Below are positions 217-48,000 of a stretch of 64,000 nt of DNA, piece by piece. The position numbers and the translations under genes were made by a program. Each line of letters begins with the position of its first letter. The stretch's first letter is position 1. The notes beneath the pieces were generated by a model. It was not told where the DNA came from, made no database searches, and saw only the letters and a program-made list of their open reading frames with translations. Origin of the DNA: Magnolia sinica (Eukaryota; Streptophyta; Magnoliopsida; Magnoliales; Magnoliaceae); contig NC_080588.1 in NCBI RefSeq assembly GCF_029962835.1, positions 65,620,001 to 65,684,000 on the forward strand, read 5' to 3'.

Positions 217-1074
217 ATGCGGATGGAGGAGCTTCGACCACGTCACCCAAGCAATGCGGAGTTTTTTAGAGACCCGAAACGTCAGACCTGGATTTGTAAG
301 TATGGGCCGCGTGGCAAGTTCGGTGTATGTGCCGAAGGCTCGGAGGAGGATTGGGGAGTGTCAGTAGGGTCAGTAGTCAATTTCTCGTCAGATAAGTGTG
401 CCTCGGACCACACGAACCCAACAACTTTCGATCTTAACTAATCCTTATGCATTGACCCTCTTTTTGAACCTATTCTTCTGCCAATCTCTCGAGAAGCCTC
501 AGCGCCTTTTGCGGAGGAGTTCTCTCGTGAAGGTGAAACCCCTCTCTCGATCCATCCTTGGGTGACCTAGAAGATCACCTCGCCTCTGCGTCAATCGGGT
601 CCAAGCAATCCTCAGCCCCCCAATCCACACTGGTGGGCTAACCACGATCCATTCCTCACCACAGGAACGATGCCACTTATGTGGGAGGTAGAAGAATCTC
701 CCGATCTCGACTTCTGGTCGTGGAATTTGGAAAATTAGGATTCTCCAACCATTTCATTATCCTCTCCCATTTCTCCCAGAAGCGGCACGTCAGAGCTAGT
801 ACTAACCACTCTTTTTTAGGAGGAAAGCGTAGAAGGCTTCATTGAAGCAGAGCCCTTGCAGATTCGGGTAGGAAAAATATCAGAAGAGACGGAGAACACT
901 CAATTGATGAAGGTGGATGCTGACTCTCAGAGGGCCAAGTTGATTGACGTCATCCAAAGGAAAAAATGGATCAGAGATGCCATTGGACACGTGGGAAGAT
1001 CTTTAGGGCTATTGTTCGGGGACAGTCCAAAAGATTACATAGCCCTTTTCCAATGTGTTGAGACCCGAGGTTGA
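217..1074 (+). pseudogene. LINE ORF1 region, degraded
   Basis: Two short open stretches (217-441 and about 856-1,074) lie where LINE ORF1 (the RNA-binding, gag-like protein) is expected, between the 5' end of the element and the ORF2 start at 1,228. Stops and frame shifts separate them. I see no clear CCHC zinc knuckle or other diagnostic motif, so the assignment rests on position in the element rather than on protein similarity. Confidence 0.45.
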
Positions 1075-1302
1075 CCGTTACTAGGAACAAGATCTCCTAG
1101 ACAACATCCCTCTAGACCGAGCAGCAAGCAACAGGGAACTCCACAGCCTTACATCTACTCTCAGTTCATCCATTGGCTTCAAATTGGGAACAGAGAATGT
1201 AGGTAAAAGGGGCAGTTCGGTTTCTCTATGAAGTTCCTCTCGTGGAATGTTAGAGGAGTCGGGTTGAAGCAGAAAAGAAGACTCCTCAAAGACACATGCG
1301 GA

Positions 1303-1355
1303 CAAAACAATCCAGATGTTTTTTTTTTTTTTTAAAGGCAAAACAATCCAGATGT
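1303..1355 (-). mobile_element. Minimal poly(T) retro-insertion with 17-bp target duplication
   Basis: CAAAACAATCCAGATGT at 1,303-1,319 is repeated exactly at 1,339-1,355. Between the copies are 19 bases: a T run and then AAAGG. This is the structure expected of an extremely 5'-truncated minus-strand LINE or SINE insertion in which little more than the poly(A) tail was copied. The net gain of 36 bp keeps the reading frame but adds an in-frame TAA at 1,333. Confidence 0.75.
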
Positions 1356-4300
1356 GATTTGTTTCCAGGAGACAAAGGATTAAAATTTTACTGATCAGCT
1401 GATGGGCTCTCTTTGGAAGGCTCAAGATGCAAAATGGGTAGTGTTGGAGGCTACTGGTAATGCGGGAGGTATCCTAGTGGCGTGGAAATCATCTATATGG
1501 TCTCTCGACAATAGTTGGAAAGGAGATTTCTCTCTTTCAATTATTCTTAGAAACATCTCCTTCGACTTCTGTTGTCTTATTACCTTAGTCTACGGTCCTA
1601 ATTTGGAAGACAGTAGAAACGATTTCTGGGTGGAACTTAGTGCTACAAGTTGCAAATTTGACGGCTCATGGTGCTTATGTGGAGATTTCAATATAACGAG
1701 ATATGCCGAAGAGAAGTCCCACGACACCAAGGTTACTCTAGCAATGCGGACTTTCTCTTCTTGGATCAATGACCAAGAGCTAGTGGACCTTCCCCTGCTA
1801 GGCTCAAGATTCACCTAGACCAACGGGGGGTTGAAGCCGATTCTCTCCAAACTGGACAGATTTTTGGTCTCCACCGATTGGACTGAGTCATTTCCTTTAG
1901 TGTCCCAGTCGGTCCTTCCGAGAACCACATCAGACCACTGCCTGGTGATTCTTGCAGCTGAAGATCAAAGTTAGGGCTCGAAACCTTTCGGGTTCGAAAT
2001 TTCATGGCTGAAGATAGTAGGTTTCTCACAACTTATAAAAGAGTGGTGGTTTGGTTTTGAAGTGGAAGGCTATGCTAGTTTTAGGTTGAGCAGCAAACTG
2101 AAACTACTAAAGGAGAAGATTAAACAGTGGAGAGCGAAGGAATCGTGTATAAGGGCAAGGGAAATGGAATTGTTGTTGTCGAACCTGCAAGAAAATTGAC
2201 CTCAGTGTAGAAGGAGGTTCTATGTCAACAGATCAATTGACAAATAGAATTCAGATTATCCAAAATATTTCAGCTAGAGTGTTAGAAGATGAAATTGCTT
2301 GTAGACAACGCTCGCGGTCTAAATGGATTAGAGAGGGACAAAAACACAGAGTTTTTTCACAGCGTAGCCAGCACGCATCTTAGATACAACAGGAGCAATA
2401 GCATAGTGGTGAACGACATTCGCATTGAAGATAAAGATCAAATTGTGGAAGAGGCAATTAGATTTTTCAGCAACTTGCTCTAGGGAGAGGACTGGAAAAG
2501 GCCTGGTTTAGACCTCCTGCAGGTTGACAGGTTATTGGAAGCTGACGACAAAGATCTCGAGTCCCCTTTCTCATCGAAAGAAGTCAAGGTAGCAGTGAAC
2601 GCCTTAGGAGGAGATAAGGCTCTAGGGCCAGATGGATTCCCAATCCTATTTTTTAAGATGTTTCGGGAAGAACTTCAGAGTGACGTTATGGATTTCTTCA
2701 TCGAATTCTATGAAAGAGGGCATTTCTCTAAAGGGCTCGGGGCCTCTTTCATTGCATTAATCCCTAAATTTCCTGGTGCAGCTTGCTTTAAAGATTTTAA
2801 ACCGATAACTCTAATTGGTGGGCCATACAAGATCCTAGCAAAAATTATGGCATCTCGTTTAAAGAAGGTGGTAGAGAATGTTATATCTGGAAATCAGAGC
2901 GCATTCATTCCGGGTAGACAAATCATTGATAGTGCCTTAATAGCGTATGAATGTTTAGACTCCAGCCACAAATCCAAATCAAAGGGTATCCTATGCAAGC
3001 TTGATCTTGAGAAGGCATACAACCATGTGGATTGGGGCTTCCTTCAGTATATGTTATCTTGTATGGATTTCAGTGAGAAATAGAAAGGGTGGATAGGGGA
3101 GTGCGTGGGATCCACACACTTCTCTGTTCTTCTAAACAGCTCCCCAAAAGGCTTTTTCAAAAGCTCTAGGGGATTACGCCAAGGGGACCTGCTATCGCCT
3201 TTCCTTTTCCTTATAGTCGGGGAGGCTTTATCCAGAATGCTAATCAAAGGACAAGAAGAAGGTATTCTAAGCGGTATCAGAGTAAAGGGCATGGACAATC
3301 CGATTTCACATATTCAATTTGCGGATGACACGCTGCTATTCAGTGAAGCAAATCAGGAGAGGGTGAGCAATTTGTGCACAACGATCCTATGTTTTGAGGC
3401 AGTCTCCGGTTTGAGAGTTAACATGGCTGAAACCAAGATGTACGGGGTAAACATGGAACAGGAAGACATTAGATATTTCGCCGACTTCTTTAACTGTTCC
3501 ACAGGCAGCTTCTCGACCTCCTTCGTTGGTCTTCCATTGTGCATTGGAAAGCCTCCAAAATATCTTTGGGACAAGGCCATAGACAGATTCGAGAAATACC
3601 TTGCTAGATGGAAATGCAAATATTTATCGTTTGGGGGGTGTATCACCCTAATTAAGTCGGCTCTATCGAATCTCCTGTTACTTCATGTCCCTATTTAGAT
3701 GTCCTACCTCGGTCCTGGCTATCCTTGAAAAATCTAAACGTGACTTTCTATGGCATGGGAAAGAGGAGAAAAAGAAATCCCACTTGGTAAAATGGAAGGA
3801 GGTGTGCAAGCACATTCAAGAAGAAGGTGTTGGGATGAAAGTTCTCAAGACAATGAACTGGGCCCTTTTAGGAAAGTGGATATGGAGATTTGGGACAGAA
3901 CGTGGGAGTCTATGGAACAAGTTAATCAAAAGTAAGTATGGAAGCTCAACGGGATGCTAGTGGACCAAGGACTCTTCTTCTTATGGGGCCTCGGCCCTCT
4001 GGAGGGGTGTCCTATCCATGAAAAAGGAGGTCCTCAAAGGTATCGGTTTCGAAATTGGTAACGGAGAAAATGTTCAATTCTGGGAAGATACATGGGTGGG
4101 AGAAGTAGCTCTAAAAGTGAACTTTCCAAAAATTTTCCGCATCGCTCCAAACCAAGCCATATCAGTAGTAAAGTGTCTTTCATTAACCGGTGGGGATTTG
4201 GTATGGAATCTGGAATGTAGAAGAAATTTACAGGATTGGGAGATCGCAGAGTATGTGGCCCTCGATCGAATCTCCAAAAGTAAGCCGGATCTTTTTAGTG

Positions 4301-4726
4301 AAGACAGATTAATATGGAGGGCTGATAACTCCAGGTTATTCTCGGTTAAGTCATTTTACAAAATTCCGGTTAGCAATCCCTTCCCCGATGAAGAACCTAT
4401 AACAAACCAGATTTGGAACTACTCGGTCCCTCCTAAGATAGCGTTTTTTGGGTGGCTAGTCGGGAAAAAGGTGCTTACGGTTGACAATTTGAGGAAAAGG
4501 GGGGTGATCCTACCTAATGTGTGTCTATGTTGTATGGTGGATGAAGAGATAGTCGATCACTTGTTTGTTCATTGCTCCTATATAAATAAGATTTGGCCAA
4601 AAATCTTAAGTCCTTTCAGAATCAAATTGTCTTTTCCTGACACAACAGGTCGGCTGTTAAAGGTGTGGCACGATGTCAGCCTAGGAAAGCGAAGAACTCC
4701 AATTTGGAGAATAGCCTTTTTGGCAT

Positions 4727-5089
4727 GGTGTGTCGTAAAGGCCGTTATGTAAAGGTAATGGTGGCAACCATTACACATTATGGGGTCGTAAAGGCCGTAA
4801 CAACCGTTATGGAAGAAAATGACCCGTAATTGCTGTTAACGGCATGTTACGTCCCCTATAAAGGCCATAACAGCCCTGTAATTGTCTGTTATGGGGTAGA
4901 TACAGGTTTTCAATACTTTTTAATCAACATTACGGGGTAAATACAGGTTTTTCAGGGTTTTTTTTTTTTTTTTTTCAATAAAAAAAGAGACCGTAATGGC
5001 CGTTACGGGGGCCGTAACAGCTGTTACGACCCGTATCGTAAAGGTAACGTTGGTGGCCATTACGGCCACCATCACCGTTACAGAACACC
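4727..5089. mobile_element. MITE with GGTGT/ACACC termini inside the LINE
   Basis: This 363-bp stretch breaks the LINE ORF2 between its zinc-binding region and its WWAVWEERN tail. It is rich in GGCCGTTAC/GTAACGGCC-like words in both orientations and has imperfect terminal inverted repeats: the left end reads GGTGT, three bases, then GTAAAGG, and the right end reads CCGTTACAGAACACC. A T run at about 4,957-4,976 lies in the middle. The flanks share an imperfect duplication (GCCTTTTTGGC / GCCTTCTGGC). If that is the target duplication, removing one copy rejoins the ORF2 frame. Superfamily is uncertain; Mutator-like is possible. Confidence 0.65.
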
Positions 5090-5634: not shown

Positions 5635-8600
5635 GTTGATAATTTGCGTAAGCATGTTCGGGCATCCGGACTTGCTAAGAGAATTGATTTAGTGATTACT
5701 TCTCCTTTGCTAAGGTAACAACTTGGGAACATTTAAGATTCTTGTTTGGAACCATTTGAAATCAGTGCTTGCAATTGTGAATCTTTTTTGCAACATTACT
5801 ATCCTTTTTTCCTTTATCGAATGCATGCTACTTTAGTTTATGATTGCTTGCAATTCTGCTGCAGGACAATGCAAACAGCGGTGGGAGTCTTTGGTGGTGA
5901 CGGCTATGTTGATGGGGTGGATGTAGCTCCTTTAATGGTGGCAAATGCAGGGAACAGCAATCATTCTGCAATTTCAAGTTTAAATTGCCTGCCCTTTGTT
6001 GCAGTGGAAACATGCCGGGAACATTTGGTATGTGGAGGAATGATCACCTGCAGGCAAGATCGTGTGGAGCATTGAGTGTGGTCCAACTCAGGTATGCCCC
6101 ACCATGATGTTTTGATGATATCTATCTTGTCCATCAGATGTGTCACCTCAGAAAACCTCCTGGGGACCAAAAATCAATCAGATCCATGGCTCAGATGGGC
6201 CACAACACAGGGAACAAGATGAGACAGGATGCCCACTGTTGATTTGTGTGTGAGGCCCACCATATTGTATATAGTATCAAGACCATTCAGGTCATTCATC
6301 TGGCTTGGATGAACAAAAATTCATGAAGCTTTACAACTCCAGTGGGGCCAACAAAATCAATGGTGGGCGTCCACTCCCACCTTCCCTGTGTTGTGGCCTA
6401 CCTGAGTTTTGAATTGGTGTGGTTTTGGGGCCCAGGGGTTTTTATGATGTGAGACATCTGATGGACGGGATGGATGTCCTCACAATATCATGGTGGGGCC
6501 CACCTGAGTTTGACCGCATGAATGCTCCCTGCGGTCCTGCTCGCAGGTGAGAACCACTATTGGTATGCATAACGATTAAAGACTTTTTTTTTTTTTTTGG
6601 TGGTAAATAATTACAGGAAATATCTTAGAAATAGTTCTTCATATTCATAATCCATGCCCACAAGTGATTGAGTGGAAAACTACCCGATGGTAATGAACAC
6701 GATAGTAGGTAAATCTACCCATTATAGAGGAATGATTCACATGACTGGAACAAAGTCAAAACTAGAAAGGAACCTACATAAATGTGGTCTGCTCATAAAA
6801 TATAGAGCTCATGCCCATATCAACATCGACTAAGTATAGATTTTGTTTGCATGAGCTTTTGATGCCATTCATCATACAACAACACTAATCCTTGATAAGT
6901 CCATCTTGCTTCCAATGCATTATTCAATAATTCTCATCAACAACAAAAGCTTGTTATATGCCTCAAGCACTCCATATACAGGCCCTGTGTTTTTAACACA
7001 TTTAACAGACCCAAAACAGATGGCGGCAATAGAACTTTGCTAAGCCAAACTCATGGACAAGGAATACCATCTACACGCTACCACATGTGCCAGCACAGCC
7101 AACAGGTGCAATATCCAAGCCATCCATCAGTTGGGTCTCACTGTGTAGATTTCCTCTCCCAAAAATAAGTCTGGTCCATTCAGCAGGTGGGCGACAATGT
7201 TAGTAGCAGTTGGATGAGTAAGGAAACTTCAACCAAGTGTTTTTTTCTTCTTTTCTTTGTTCTTTTTCAGTAGTACATTTGCTTTGTAAACTGTCCCACT
7301 TGATGACTGGACTGACCTGATTCTTGGGAGAGAGCGTCTACATAATAATGAATGGATTGGATCTCAAACCAATGTGCTGTGCTGGCACATGTGGGATGTG
7401 TACACTTGTGGACTTAGCAAAGCTCTCTATTAGATTTGATGGATGGGTTTTGAATTTCACATTGTCAAAGTAAATGAAAACAATGGTAGATGAGAAGTTT
7501 CTATGATCTGATTTTCTTTTTGCATTTGATACATTGTGATTCTTTCTTTTGATTTCTTTCGACTGCAGGGAGTTCATCCGTGTGATAAGAGGAGAAGCAT
7601 AAGTGAATACCGTCCGCTTTTTCCTGCAGTTGATTTTTCACTGGCGAGTACCTTTTTGGCATTCATGATATAATTCTAAGGAGTAAACACGTTCTAGTTA
7701 TTATATCGAGAAATAACCTCTTTACAAATAGTGTTTCTGTCATCCTTATTTTCTTATAGAAGCATCATATAGAGTTTTGTTGTACTTCTGTTCAGATAGA
7801 GAGTGATGAAGACATTTTGTGGAAGGCTGACATTAGAGAGACAACCGAAGAAGTTGCAGCTAGGGGAAGGAAGTTTTTGAACTGGTGATACTTTTTTCAC
7901 TGTTATAACATAGCCACATAGGTTTGAAACTGCCATAGTCAATACAGAATCGTAATTGCAATTTTGAACTGAATTGATCATTTAGGCCCTCATAAAAATT
8001 AAAGCCTATGAAACTCAAATGCTGAATGTAGAACTCATCATCATCATCTAAAAGTCTTACACCTACTAATTGAGGTCGGCTACACAAATCCTATTATGCC
8101 ATTCCACTCTATCATGGACCATATCCTCAGTTAAACCGTAAGTCCTCAAGTATCTTCTTACCACCTCTACTCATAGCCTTTTGGGCCTTCTCCTTGCCGT
8201 TTTATAGCCTTTAACTTGAACCAACTCACACCATCTTACTAGTGCAGTTCTTGGTCTCTCTTGTTCATGGGCAAACCATGTTCCCTCATCTTTTTACCTA
8301 TTGGTTCTACTCCTAAGTTCCCTCGAATGAATTCATTTTTAATTCTATCCTTGTTTGGCCAAGAAAATCTCAACTAGAAAAATATATTCCTCAATCCTAA
8401 AGGGCATGTTTGGATTTCGAGGAATCTTGGTGTGGGAGGAAATCTCTATCATTATTTATTGATTATGTCCCTGGGGGCCTTGTTTGGATAGCAAATGAAA
8501 ATCTTATACGCATGTCACAATAGTCACCTCGTATCTTGTGCTTGAGAATCTGATGCAGGACAATTAACCACTTGCTCTAAAAGCTCGAACTATTAGAGCA

Positions 8601-11600: not shown

Positions 11601-14600
11601 CTTGCCATTTAAAACATCACATAGTCAAACTCTTTTACCACCATTTAACTTTTTGAAAAAATGAAAAAATGAAAAAGGTTTTACTCCCTTGTTGAGGTGG
11701 GAAAGGCAAAGGCAAACAGTTTGATGAGGCATTCTCCACATCCCAAGCAAGTGGAAACATCTTGTTGCATAAACTAAATGCTTCCCTTAATTTACCTTCA
11801 ATCCAAACAGGCCATAAGTGCGATGACTGAATGACCTTCAACTAATAGATGACCTGAGAAGGACATTCTAAGTACCTCCATTCCTACCAAGAGCACTCCA
11901 GCTTATATTTAACTCTTAGAGGACCTGAAATAGGTATTTTGATTCTAATTTCTCCTTTGTTGTCTCCAACATGCCCCATATGTCTGCGGTCCCCAGAAGA
12001 CCCCACCTGCCCCTATGAGCTAATCATTGAATAACTTATGGAATGACCAATCTTGTCTCCTAGTTCTGGTTCTTCGAATGTTTCCTTTTTAGCTTTGTGG
12101 GACTGCCTGGGCCCATCTTTGTATTGGGAATTCTCTTCCCCTTCTCTGATTTTAATATATTTTCATTACTTTCTCAAGGGGGGAAAAATAATGTCTTTAG
12201 ATGTTTTATATATTAATTGAACATTGCCAGATGGATACGTTCAGCGATTTGTTATCAATTTCATTTCTTCTTCTTCTTTTATTTATTTATTTCATGTAGG
12301 TTGTGGACGCGCAAAGAAAAGGAGATTGCTATTGTTACCCATAGTGGATTCTTGTTTCATACCCTAAAAACGTTCGGAAATGATTGTCATCCCTTAGTTA
12401 AGGAAGAAATTAGCAAACAGTAAGTGTTCCATGAGGCATTTTTTGCTTTATCTATGATATTACATTTTCAATTTCTTAATTTTCTCTGTCAATTTTCCAT
12501 TGTTAAATAATCATTATGTTTCAGTAATTTGGTCCCGAGATTGGTACATCAAAATTGCTGCCTGTGAATGCAAAGCCTTAGTACATTTTCATTTCAAATA
12601 TTCATTGTACATTTTTACCATCATCTTTAACCAGGGCACATCTGTAATTATTGGATTAGAAAGATGACATGTTCATTTCGGTGTAGACACTCTTACAGAT
12701 GTGCATGCTACTTGTCGGCGTGACATTTTCTCAGTTTAGCACAAAACCAGGTTCACATAGAAGGCTTCGAGTTGGTGGCATGCAATAGAAAATTGACAAT
12801 ATTTGAAATAAATAAATAAATACTAATAATAGAAATGTGGAGATTCTCTGAATACTAAAAGCCCAAGCATGGAAAGATACAAAGACATGCGAAGAGATTG
12901 ATGTGAGGGCTAGAAATGCAACCAACAGACTTTCATGGCCACACATGATCATCTATCTCATTGGAGATGACAGCTGCCTTTAATGGATGTGGATAATCTA
13001 AATGAAGAACCTGTGATGACTCAATGAGTGTTGCTAAGATTGAATCGTCTTTGCCTCTCCACTTGTTCTTCTTTCCTTGTATTTTTGCCACATCTAATAA
13101 AGGCTGTCCATTTATCAGCACGATCATCGTCATGGTCCGTCCTAGTTACTTGGGGCCGCCTTAATTATCAGCGAAATTCAAATAGATGAGGGAATGATTA
13201 ACATACGGTAGTTACCATTTGGTCAAGCTGTGTGGGGCCACTGTTATGCACGAGTGCCATCCACACACACCACATGGTAGACCTTAGTATCAAAATCCAA
13301 ACTGATCCATTACTCAGGTCAGCCACACCAAAGAGCACAATGGGGGACATGGGGAGAGTGACCCCACCATAGAAACTTCCAGATGGAATGTGGGGTCCAT
13401 GGTGTTGTCTATATATTTATCCAACCCATCCATTAGGTGTGTCGCACTAGGATGAAGGGACACCAAAACTAAGGTGGGCCACACCATGTGAAAATAGTTC
13501 TTCTAGGTATGATTTTACATTGCCCTCTTTTGTGTTTCATACTTGAGTTTCGGATTAGGATGATTCTTAGTTGAACATGAGAAGGCTCACCAGATGCACG
13601 GTTTGGATTCCGCATAAACATCACTAGTGGCACCACGCAGCTCGAATGTATGCTATATCAACATTCCCCCATATGAAATACCATCCCTTTCCCTTTTTTA
13701 TAATCACCCTCATCTTTTATCATGCTCCAAGAACACATCATAAGCAAAACTCGAGCTTTACATGTGATTATATTTTGCTTATTGGCCTGATCAGACAGAC
13801 CTAACTAGAGTTTGCTCTTTTTCCTCATCTGCTCCACAGCTTTGCCAATTGTGAGCTCCGTTCAATGGTCATGGTCGATACAAGGTGAGCTTCTTCCACG
13901 AAACTTCTTCAAGAGCATTATTTCAAAGGAATTACATGATTCTCTACCCACGGATATGCATGATATCCTTGGGTGCTGAGCTTGTACAGGTGGGGTCTTT
14001 GTTTCAATGATCAATGTCATAGTTGTGTTTGGCCCCTTTCTGCATGTGGGAGGGCCCACAGACAATCCTAACCCCTTGACTGGCCTGCAGATTGACAGTT
14101 TAGAAAGAAAAAGAGAAAGAAAAGAAAAGAAAAAAAATCAAAGATTTGATGGCTAAGATATACCAATCCAGGATGTGGGCCCCATTAGATGAATGCCAAG
14201 ATAACTGAAAAATAGGCCCCACTTGTATGACGTTTAAACACAGGCCTGAGGGGCTTGCACATCATTCCTCCTTTTATTGATCTTTGCAGTTTCCACTTAG
14301 TTGTAATTCAATTCTAACCAAGGATTGGAAATTGGTTTCCTTAACTGTATCAGTCACCACTGAAACTGGGTCATATCACCCTGTATTGGGCCATTTCATT
14401 TATGGACGAAACCAGTTTGTATCAGGCGATTACAGACGATACTTCAAACCTTGATTCTGATTCAATATTTCTTCTACATGCAGTATGATCGGATTGGATT
14501 CCTCGACAACTAATTTTCCAGGAAAGATTCCTCAAGGACCCGATCTACCAAGTGATGTTGCACATGAGAAACACTCAGAGAAGGGAGGAGGGACCAATTA

Positions 14601-43784: not shown

Positions 43785-43793
43785 GGATAACAT

Positions 43794-44332
43794 AGAAACG
43801 GATTGGCTACTCCCCCTGACACCAGCCCATGGCTGGTGGTTGGTGCTATGTGGAGCCCACCATGATGTATTATTTTCATCCATTCCGTCCATCTATTTTT
43901 AAAAATCATTTTACGGAAGGAGACCAAGAATGAGGTATATCCAAATCTCAATTGGACCACATTACAGGAAACAGTGTCGAATGAGCGTTTACCATTAAAA
44001 ACATTTTGGGGGCCATAAAAGTTTTGGATTAAGCTGATTTTTGTTTTTTCTCTTCATCTGGGCCTGTATGACCTAATCAACAGATTGGATGTCAAATAAA
44101 CAGTACATTGGGCCTTAGGAGGATTTTAATGATGGATATCCAATCACTATTGTTTTTATGTGGTGTGGTCCACCTGATATTTATATAGCTCTCATTTTTT
44201 GGACCAAGCCATAAAATGATCGTAAAAAATGTATGAACGGAGTGGATGAAATATATACATCATGGTGTGGCCCACAGAGCACCGACCACCAGCCACGGGG
44301 CTGGTGTCAGGGGGAGTAGCCAATCCGTTTCC
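43794..44332. mobile_element. MITE-1 with about 53-bp terminal inverted repeats, upstream of the first xylosidase gene
   Basis: Left arm AAACGGATTGGCTACTCCCC then CTGACACCAGCCCATGGCTG (43,796-43,847) pairs with the right arm (44,278-44,330) over almost its whole length. The flanks repeat GGATAACA (43,785-43,792 and 44,333-44,340), giving an 8-bp target duplication, or 9 bp with one mismatch. The inner part is also an imperfect palindrome (CATCCATTCCGTCCATC ... ATGAACGGAGTGGATG). The size of about 539 bp and absence of coding sequence make it a MITE of hAT or Mutator type. It is about 0.7 kb upstream of the xylosidase start. Confidence 0.9.
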
Positions 44333-44340
44333 GGATAACA

Positions 44341-45030: not shown

Positions 45031-48000
45031 ATGGCCCATTGGAGAACAACCACCTTTCTCAAAATCCTCACCATCCTCTTACTCTCCGTATTCCACCCGA
45101 TCACAGCCGTAAAAACACCCACAGCAACAACTACAACGACAGAAAAACACCTACATCCAAAATTCCCATGCAAACCCCCCCACCAAAACGTATACCCCTT
45201 CTGCAACACCTCCCTTCCCATCGACACCAGAGCTCAATCCCTCCTCTCCCTCCTCACCCTCGATGAGAAGATCCTCCAACTCTCCAGCAAAGCTGGCCCC
45301 ATTCCTCGCCTTGGCCTCCCCGCCTACGAATGGTGGTCAGAATCACTCCACGGCATTTCCACAAACGGCTATGGTGTCAACTTCAACGGCACAATCCCCG
45401 CCGCTACCAGCTTCCCTCAAGTCCTCCTCACGTCAGCCTCCTTCAACCGGAGCCTCTGGTCTGCAATCGCCACTGCGATTGCAGTCGAGGGTAGAGCGAT
45501 GTACAATCTAGGTCAGGCCGGGCTGACGTTCTGGGCACCTAATATCAACATCTTTAGGGACCCCAGATGGGGAAGAGGGCAAGAGACACCTGGCGAGGAT
45601 CCGATGGTCACAGCAGCCTACTCGGTCGAGTACGTCAGGGCGTTCCAGGGGGAGTATTTGAGTGGTGGGTCCCAGAAGCTGATGTTATCTGCATGCTGCA
45701 AGCATTACACTGCCTATGATTTGGAGAGTTGGGGGAACTTCAGTCGGTATACTTTCAATGCTAAGGTAAAGAGGTTATCTTGGGTTCTTCTCTTATTACT
45801 GTCGTCGTTGGATTCTTTTTCATGTTCGTCTCTGTATTTCGATCGACGTAGTCAAGAACTACGTTTTATTTCGTTGATGTGTAGTGATCGTAGTAAAAAA
45901 TATTCTCCAATTTTCGTAAAATCTTGCAGAATCTTTTGAGAATTTTCGAACGAAGAGTTCCTTTATTTTGGGTTTTTAAGTTTTCAACCGTTAGACATCC
46001 GGAAGCGGATTGGCTAGTGTAAGAAGACGAGCACTGACGCTCCTCGAGCTCGGAGTTGTACGAACGGTTAAAAGGAGATTAAAGTTAAATGGTACCCAAA
46101 ATGACTTATTTATTATATCCACACTGTTCATCCATTTCTAAAGATCATTTTACAGCATGAGCAAATAATTTGTAGGTCTCACCGTAACATTTATTTTCCA
46201 TCTAATCTATTCGTAAGGTAAAAAAAGACATGAATGGAGAAGAAAAACAAATATTATATTGATCCAAAACTTCCGTGACTCCAAAAGAGTTTCAATGGTA
46301 GACGTTTAATCTCCACTGCTGTTTGTCCACGTGATCGGTCTTATTTTTCTACTCAAGCTTTACAATGAGCTCAGCAAATGTACTCATGGTTTGGATATAA
46401 CATATACCTCACAATAGGACCCCATGAAAATGGCGGCACCACTGCCGGACATGCAGACATGCAGTAGGCAGCGGCCACCAGTACTGCATGTTTCAGGGGC
46501 GGCGGCGCCACCGCCGGACAGGGGTAGTTTAGTCCGGCGGTACGTATTAGTTTGGGAAAGTAAAGTTTAGTTCCACGGAAAGAGTCCGGATCCTCTGTTA
46601 TCAGGTCAACAGAGAATTCCTGATACCCTAATTCTCATTAGTCCACGTCACTACTCACTAAAAAAATAAAAATAATAAAAAATAGCTTCGGACGCCAAAC
46701 CATTAGGGTAACAGGAATTCTCTGTTGACCGGACAACAGAGGATCCCGACTCCCACGGAAAAGCGCGTGGATAAAAAGTGGGATATATGGTCAGAAAAAA
46801 GTCTTTTCAAGGGTAAGTACTCTGTCGGCCGCAACTGAAATTATATGAACCAATCGTAGCCCTACGTAGGCTTAACTTTATGTTTGTGATAAATCCACCC
46901 CGTCCATCTGTTTTTTCATCCATCTGTTTCGTTAGAGTATTTTTGAAGTAGGTTTGCGTTCAAAGTGGGCCCCACGATTGCCCCAAGAAGTTCAACGGTT
47001 AGGTCCAATCCTACCGTTTCCTGTCGTGTAGCTCACTTTTTTTTTCCACACGCACACACACTATACACTCACGCTGGTGGAATTTCACCACCAATGGGCA
47101 CTCGAACTCTTATCGGGAGTTGAAACTCTCGAGAATCTACCACCCGGGGAAGAGTAAGGACCCGTTGTCGAGCAGCCTACCTATGGCCATGCCTTCAAAT
47201 GAGATGGCAAAACAGTTTTCTCGCAAAAATCATGGTAGCCGCCACCGTATATGGCTATGTACTAATTACACCTAACGCCGTCCACGCCCAAGGCTCAATG
47301 ACGCGATGGACCCAACGTCATCGTACGTGTGCCTACCTCGTGCGCCTACGTGGATGTTTGTGAGAAATCCACTCCATCCAACTGTTTTCCCAGTTCATTT
47401 TAGGGCATGGGGTAGATCCAATGCTCAAAGAAGTCCCATGATGTCCCAAGATGTCGTAAGGTGTTGTTCAATCTCACCATTTCCTGTCCTATGGCCCACC
47501 TGAGCTTTGGATCGTTCTTATTTTTGGACCCATACCTAGAGGTGGGCATAATGGACCCAATCCGACCTGACTCGGTACCGTTTCGAACAGAACCGGCGGC
47601 ATAGATCGGCCTGATCGAGTCTGTCCATCCAGATTCGATCGTTTTTCAGATCAAGTTCAGATAGCGGTGTATCCGGACAGAACCGATCCGAAAATCTAGA
47701 CCAAAAGAGTCTGAACCAACCCGGGGATGTAAATATCCCTCTATTTTACAAAATATCCCTATGTCTTTGGCTTTTCGTTTGACGCCAAAAAAATCCGCCC
47801 AACATACACTTAGCCCCCAACTCTCTCTCTATCTCTCTTTATATATGTCTTTCTCTTTATATCTCTTTCCCTTTCTGTTGAAGATGAAGGCGAGTAGAAG
47901 ACTAGTTAGATATGCGGTAGATCAAATACCTCTCTTTCTGCCGTTGGATTTTGGAGATTTCTCTGTTGGAGAGATATATACTGAGATATGATGGATAGTT

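Follow-up and report, generated by a model that had tools for sequence, protein, structure and literature searches.

The window analysed here is a stretch of 64,000 nucleotides of the Magnolia sinica assembly (C16:65620001-65684000), and it carries a gene of the histidine-phosphatase superfamily, whose plant family we take to be the one named 'phosphoglycerate-mutase-like'. Two of its coding exons, both on the + strand, frame the feature described here. The first (5865-6027) ends in ...GAACATTTG and has a paralogous exon on C11; the second (7569-7643) is in frame with 6027 and matches its paralogue at 85.8% over 106 nt. Joined, they read through the splice without a stop (...AVETCREHL|GVHPCDKRRSISEYRPLFPAVDFSL, i.e. 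...ETCREHL|GVHPCDKRR...). The joined exon translations of the gene match PF00300 (E 4.3e-7) at residues 118-159 of 191, which are encoded by later exons, and with E allowed up to 0.1 a single solved chain came up, the phosphoglycerate mutase 9mmh, a weak match (E 0.071). Later exons of the gene (THSGFLFHTLKTFGNDCHP..., FANCELRSM...) lie at 12,280-13,900, 4-6 kb further on, and the gene therefore has several long introns. The next intron, at 7644-7645, starts with a GC donor, TCACTG|GCGAGT; the corresponding site of the C11 paralogue reads TCACTG|GTAAGT, a GT/GC difference between the paralogues. Ahead of an exon at 5635, a LINE-like element occupies about 600-4750 on the + strand and includes an open stretch resembling a reverse transcriptase (FADD motif recognized by eye); an earlier coding exon (VRHAQGIHNVEG...) is found upstream of this element, outside the window (L030 near 6942).

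The border of the first exon is covered by an 8-bp sequence, TTGGTATG, composed of the last three bases of the exon and the first five bases of the intron (TTG|GTATG). Exact copies of it are present on the + strand at 6025-6032 and 6560-6567, 535 apart; the left copy forms the exon-proximal donor (junction 6027|6028) and the right copy a second donor (junction 6562|6563). Between them lies a 527-bp element (6033-6559, no strand assigned), the halves of which align in inverted orientation with 70.8% identity over 517 alignment columns. Its terminal bases read inward TGGAGGAATGATCACCTGC at the left end and TAGTGGTTCTCACCTGC at the right end, and a scan of its six frames found no open stretch of more than 48 codons. 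Short, non-coding, made of inverted repeats, flanked by a target site duplication (TSD) and represented by several copies in the genome, it has the properties of a miniature inverted-repeat transposable element (MITE), and more precisely of a non-autonomous foldback element that is hAT-like by TSD length and one terminus. The first-pass annotation had placed a MITE with these ends on an exon-intron border at 6027, its TSD duplicating the donor, and the exact repeat at both flanks, the foldback structure, the terminal bases, the open frame of the joined exons and the identical border of the C11 paralogue all agree with that description. A second foldback-like repeat lies in the same intron at 7031-7426 (arms AGAACTTTGCTAAG / CTTAGCAAAGCTCT; our scan found no TSD). 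Elsewhere in the window, a foldback at 43785-44340, with termini near GGAAACGGATTGGCTACTCCCC and 8-bp repeats GGATAACA, represents a different MITE-like family, and a 171-bp near-palindromic element is bounded by exact 9-bp repeats CCACGGAAA at 46573-46761. Within the 64-kb window the element itself has only short partial matches as further copies.

A protein search identified the paralogue on the minus strand of C11 (81% identity, query residues 1-60). Its exon border, ...GAACATCTG|GTATGTATTTG..., followed by GGAGTTCACCCGTGTGAC 1,542 nt further on, is the same as that of the target: at this position the paralogue has an intron of 1,542 nt with a single donor, CATCTG|GTATGTAT, and its border carries no element. 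The two intron starts align poorly past the donor. Because the paralogue has a same-place intron without the element at its border, the intron predates the insertion, which struck an existing intron once the two genes had diverged. The C11 paralogue is an empty-site-like comparison, distinct from an orthologous empty allele, and bears in this way on the empty site with a single copy of the repeat that the first-pass annotation expected: the paralogue has one donor (CTGGTATGT) and lacks the element at the border. A whole-genome duplication shared with Liriodendron was inferred for M. sinica (PMC10999834), and the C11 copy may stem from it. About 0.6 kb past the donor, the C11 intron (L029 near C11:8962506) contains a 94-nt segment that shares 74% identity with the right arm of the element; the two paralogues possibly carry related MITEs in this intron, inserted at different positions.

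We searched the M. sinica assembly (1,838,573,281 bases, 127 contigs) with the element. At least 83 matches were obtained, self-matches and inverted self-matches included, with 40 of 643 candidates scored, and among these 40 the closest copy apart from the element itself has 75% identity across query positions 1-525 of 527. Sixteen match regions were retrieved, and 7 of the 17 stretches (the target and 16 regions) make up the alignment used below, namely the target and L009-L014. The target is 88% identical to the majority of these seven rows, a majority that includes the target itself and the flanks. The family ends proposed at 6033 and 6559 are reproduced within about two bases by L009 and L010, while a different right end (TTTCGGTCACC) in L011 and L013 hints at subfamilies. 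Both ends are available for four other copies (L009, L010, L014 and a C17 copy in L020/L021), and their flanks were compared for 8-mers with 4 bp of play on either side. The best flanking pair has 7 of 8 matches for L010 (CTTTTAAC/TTTTTAAC) and for the C17 copy (TTTATATA/TTTATGTA); that of L009 lies half within the element and was thus not counted as a TSD; L014 sits in GT-type simple repeats, and its best 8-mer (7/8), four bases off the end, is uninformative. In the corresponding null, at least 7 matches were reached in 167 of 5,000 trials and 8 matches in 25 of 5,000.

These observations are best explained, with high confidence in our view, by the insertion of a MITE across the exon-intron border with duplication of the donor by the TSD, use of the left copy, and splicing of the element together with the intron. 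A non-autonomous, probably hAT-type MITE would have been pasted across the border, the cut leaving an 8-bp stagger over TTG|GTATG, and gap repair would have copied these 8 bp, so that the element is now flanked on both sides by the three final exon bases and the 5' splice site core. U1 would then bind the left copy, and the whole element would be removed inside the already existing intron, leaving the protein unchanged. We infer that it is the left donor that serves in splicing: from this TSD copy the coding frame stays open and matches the C11 paralogue. The element is expected to leave with the intron because TTG|GTATG still adjoins the exon in the left copy, and the gene can probably still be read correctly because the duplication left a usable splice signal before the element.

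hAT termini follow the pattern YARNG, which the right terminus of the element, TAGTG, fits; the left end, TGGAG, departs from it at position 2 (G for A), and the ends of the other copies vary. The 8-bp TSD by which hAT insertions are recognized is present at the target element as an exact repeat. Together, the length of the TSD and the TAGTG terminus favour a hAT-like element over a Mutator-like (MULE) one, and from them we infer the transposase type. It is doubtful that the element is instead a MULE-type MITE with an imperfect 9-bp TSD, although its long inverted arms would suit one and extending the repeat to 9 bp on either side costs one mismatch, giving TTGGTATGT/TTGGTATGC or TTTGGTATG/ATTGGTATG; with T at +6 in the paralogue, an original 9-bp TTGGTATGT with later decay on the right is conceivable. 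However, the exact match is 8 bp long, the ninth base differs on either side, and the right terminus is in line with the hAT pattern.

The relative strength of the donors was estimated from their ViennaRNA duplex with the 5' end of U1, by itself a crude guide, for the 42 GT sites of 5,996-6,640. The left and right copies agree at every position between -3 and +5, and their first difference is at +6, which is T in the left copy, where it is provided by the first base of the element (GTATGT), and C in the right copy. The left donor ranks 5 of 42 (-6.4 kcal/mol) and the right donor 19 of 42 (-4.2 kcal/mol), a value also obtained for the joined flanks; the paralogue donor, which has T at +6, reaches -7.3 kcal/mol. 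Given the T at +6 in the paralogue, either an older C gave way to the T of the element, or the right copy has since changed its T to C and the left donor owes no improvement to the element. The first rank belongs to a donor-like site in the right terminal repeat of the element, CGCAG|GTGAGA (6542-6552, + strand, junction 6546|6547), which at -11.3 kcal/mol is in about the top 0.2% of the 3,400 + strand GT sites of the window. CAG|GTATGC at 6091|6092 (-7.3 kcal/mol) and the GT sites at 6492 (-7.8), 6362 (-7.3) and 6031 (-6.4) likewise equal or exceed the left donor in pairing. The suggestion in the first-pass annotation that the right copy provides a ready alternative donor is thus not supported by its rank, and if any downstream donor is used, the pairing energies make the CAG|GTGAGA of the element likelier than the right copy. 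At the place equivalent to 6546|6547, AG|GT is found in 7 of 7 rows of the alignment, CAG|GT in 6 and CAGGTRAG in 3; L014 has two such stretches, and counted by the outermost, CTG|GTGAGC, these figures become 6, 5 and 2 of 7.

A single predicted fold places the left donor in a 9-bp hairpin formed with exon bases upstream of it; the energy is -9.8 kcal/mol for a 32-nt window and -8.1 for the joined flanks. When 6001-6620 is folded, the unpaired probability across the left donor is 0 to 0.22, and the right copy is more open. This hairpin need not block splicing, because a similar one is predicted before insertion. Nevertheless, with the left donor in a predicted hairpin and a much stronger donor-like site at 6546|6547, some leakage to downstream sites may occur. 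Real alternative splicing beside the normal event, from the right TSD or, more likely, from the CAG|GTGAGA of the element in some transcripts, would yield element-containing transcripts with a stop at 6073-6075, hence degradation or a truncated protein and a lower output of the gene. We consider this rather unlikely, and it can hold alongside the best explanation. In its favour, CAG|GTGAGA is the best of the 42 local GT sites, the left donor is moderate only and within a predicted hairpin, and hAT-like MITEs are described as forming MITE-containing isoforms in carrot genes (PMC8227079). Against it, the exon, which is 163 nt long with the left donor, would become 227, 682 or 698 nt long with donors 6091, 6546 and 6562, respectively, and would hold an in-frame stop: translation running past the left donor meets a TGA at 6073-6075 on the + strand (read-through frame ...EHLVCGGMITCRQDRVEH*), and all three donors carry the frame into it after VCGGMITCRQDRVEH. 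For the right copy this amounts to a frameshifting extension of 535 nt with a stop after 15 codons. Transcripts made from the downstream donors would be non-functional because each runs into this stop, and on the basis of the reading frame they should be substrates for decay. A more speculative and improbable idea is that the terminal repeat of this family holds a near-consensus, CAG|GTGAG-like donor pointing out of the right end whichever way the element lies (CAG|GTGAGA here, CAG|GTGATC in the other arm when reverse-complemented), with which copies inserted in or by an exon could supply their own donor, and that here three competing donors (left TSD, terminal inverted repeat, right TSD), held close by the hairpin of the element, would form a tunable switch between full-length and truncated products.

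That the 8-bp match is fortuitous and the foldback a mere intronic repeat is very improbable: only the shortness of the repeat speaks for it, random trials on the window produced an exact 8-mer repeat at two fixed places about 535 bp apart 8 times in 200,000, and 793 times in 200,000 with 5 bp of play in either direction at both ends, and the terminal motifs are common to genomic relatives. That the element created the intron, in the manner of an introner whose TSD supplies the 5' splice site, is hardly credible and was rejected, for although a donor inside the TSD is also described for some introners (PMC9860276), the intron of the C11 paralogue occupies the same position and its border lacks the element, and the acceptor (7568) lies about 1 kb beyond the element.

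In conclusion, the case is real and tidy and its mechanism ordinary; it is a new example of a known process and not a new system. It is a clean natural example of a gene tolerating a transposon where exon meets intron, since the element's own target duplication rebuilt the donor, and it permits a direct test of the choice made by the spliceosome between two donors that share their core and differ at +6 and in their surroundings. The current understanding of MITEs or of splicing is unchanged. In open-licence PMC text we found, by title or start of abstract, no description of a MITE duplicating a donor via its TSD, and among the papers listed in the same text for duplicated splice donors none concerned transposons by title. 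Insertions of Ds/Ac and of other transposons at splice sites are known from maize genes. The Ds/Ac cases share with the present one a hAT insertion near a splice junction and removal of the element by the spliceosome; they differ in that the present allele is the one carried by a reference assembly and has an undamaged coding frame. The hAT-like MITEs of carrot and Brassica nigra genes are, like this element, small, non-coding and located within genes (PMC7385995, PMC8227079), with 8-bp TSDs in the B. nigra families (PMC7385995) and a potential to form isoforms in carrot (PMC8227079). In contrast with them, the TSD here spans a 5' splice site, and the inverted arms are far longer than the terminal inverted repeats of 25 and 12 bp given for two B. 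nigra families (PMC7385995). Finally, introners resemble this element by having the donor within the TSD and by being spliced out whole (PMC9860276), but here no new intron arose, as the same-place intron of the C11 paralogue, without the element at its border, indicates, and the acceptor is not at the element.
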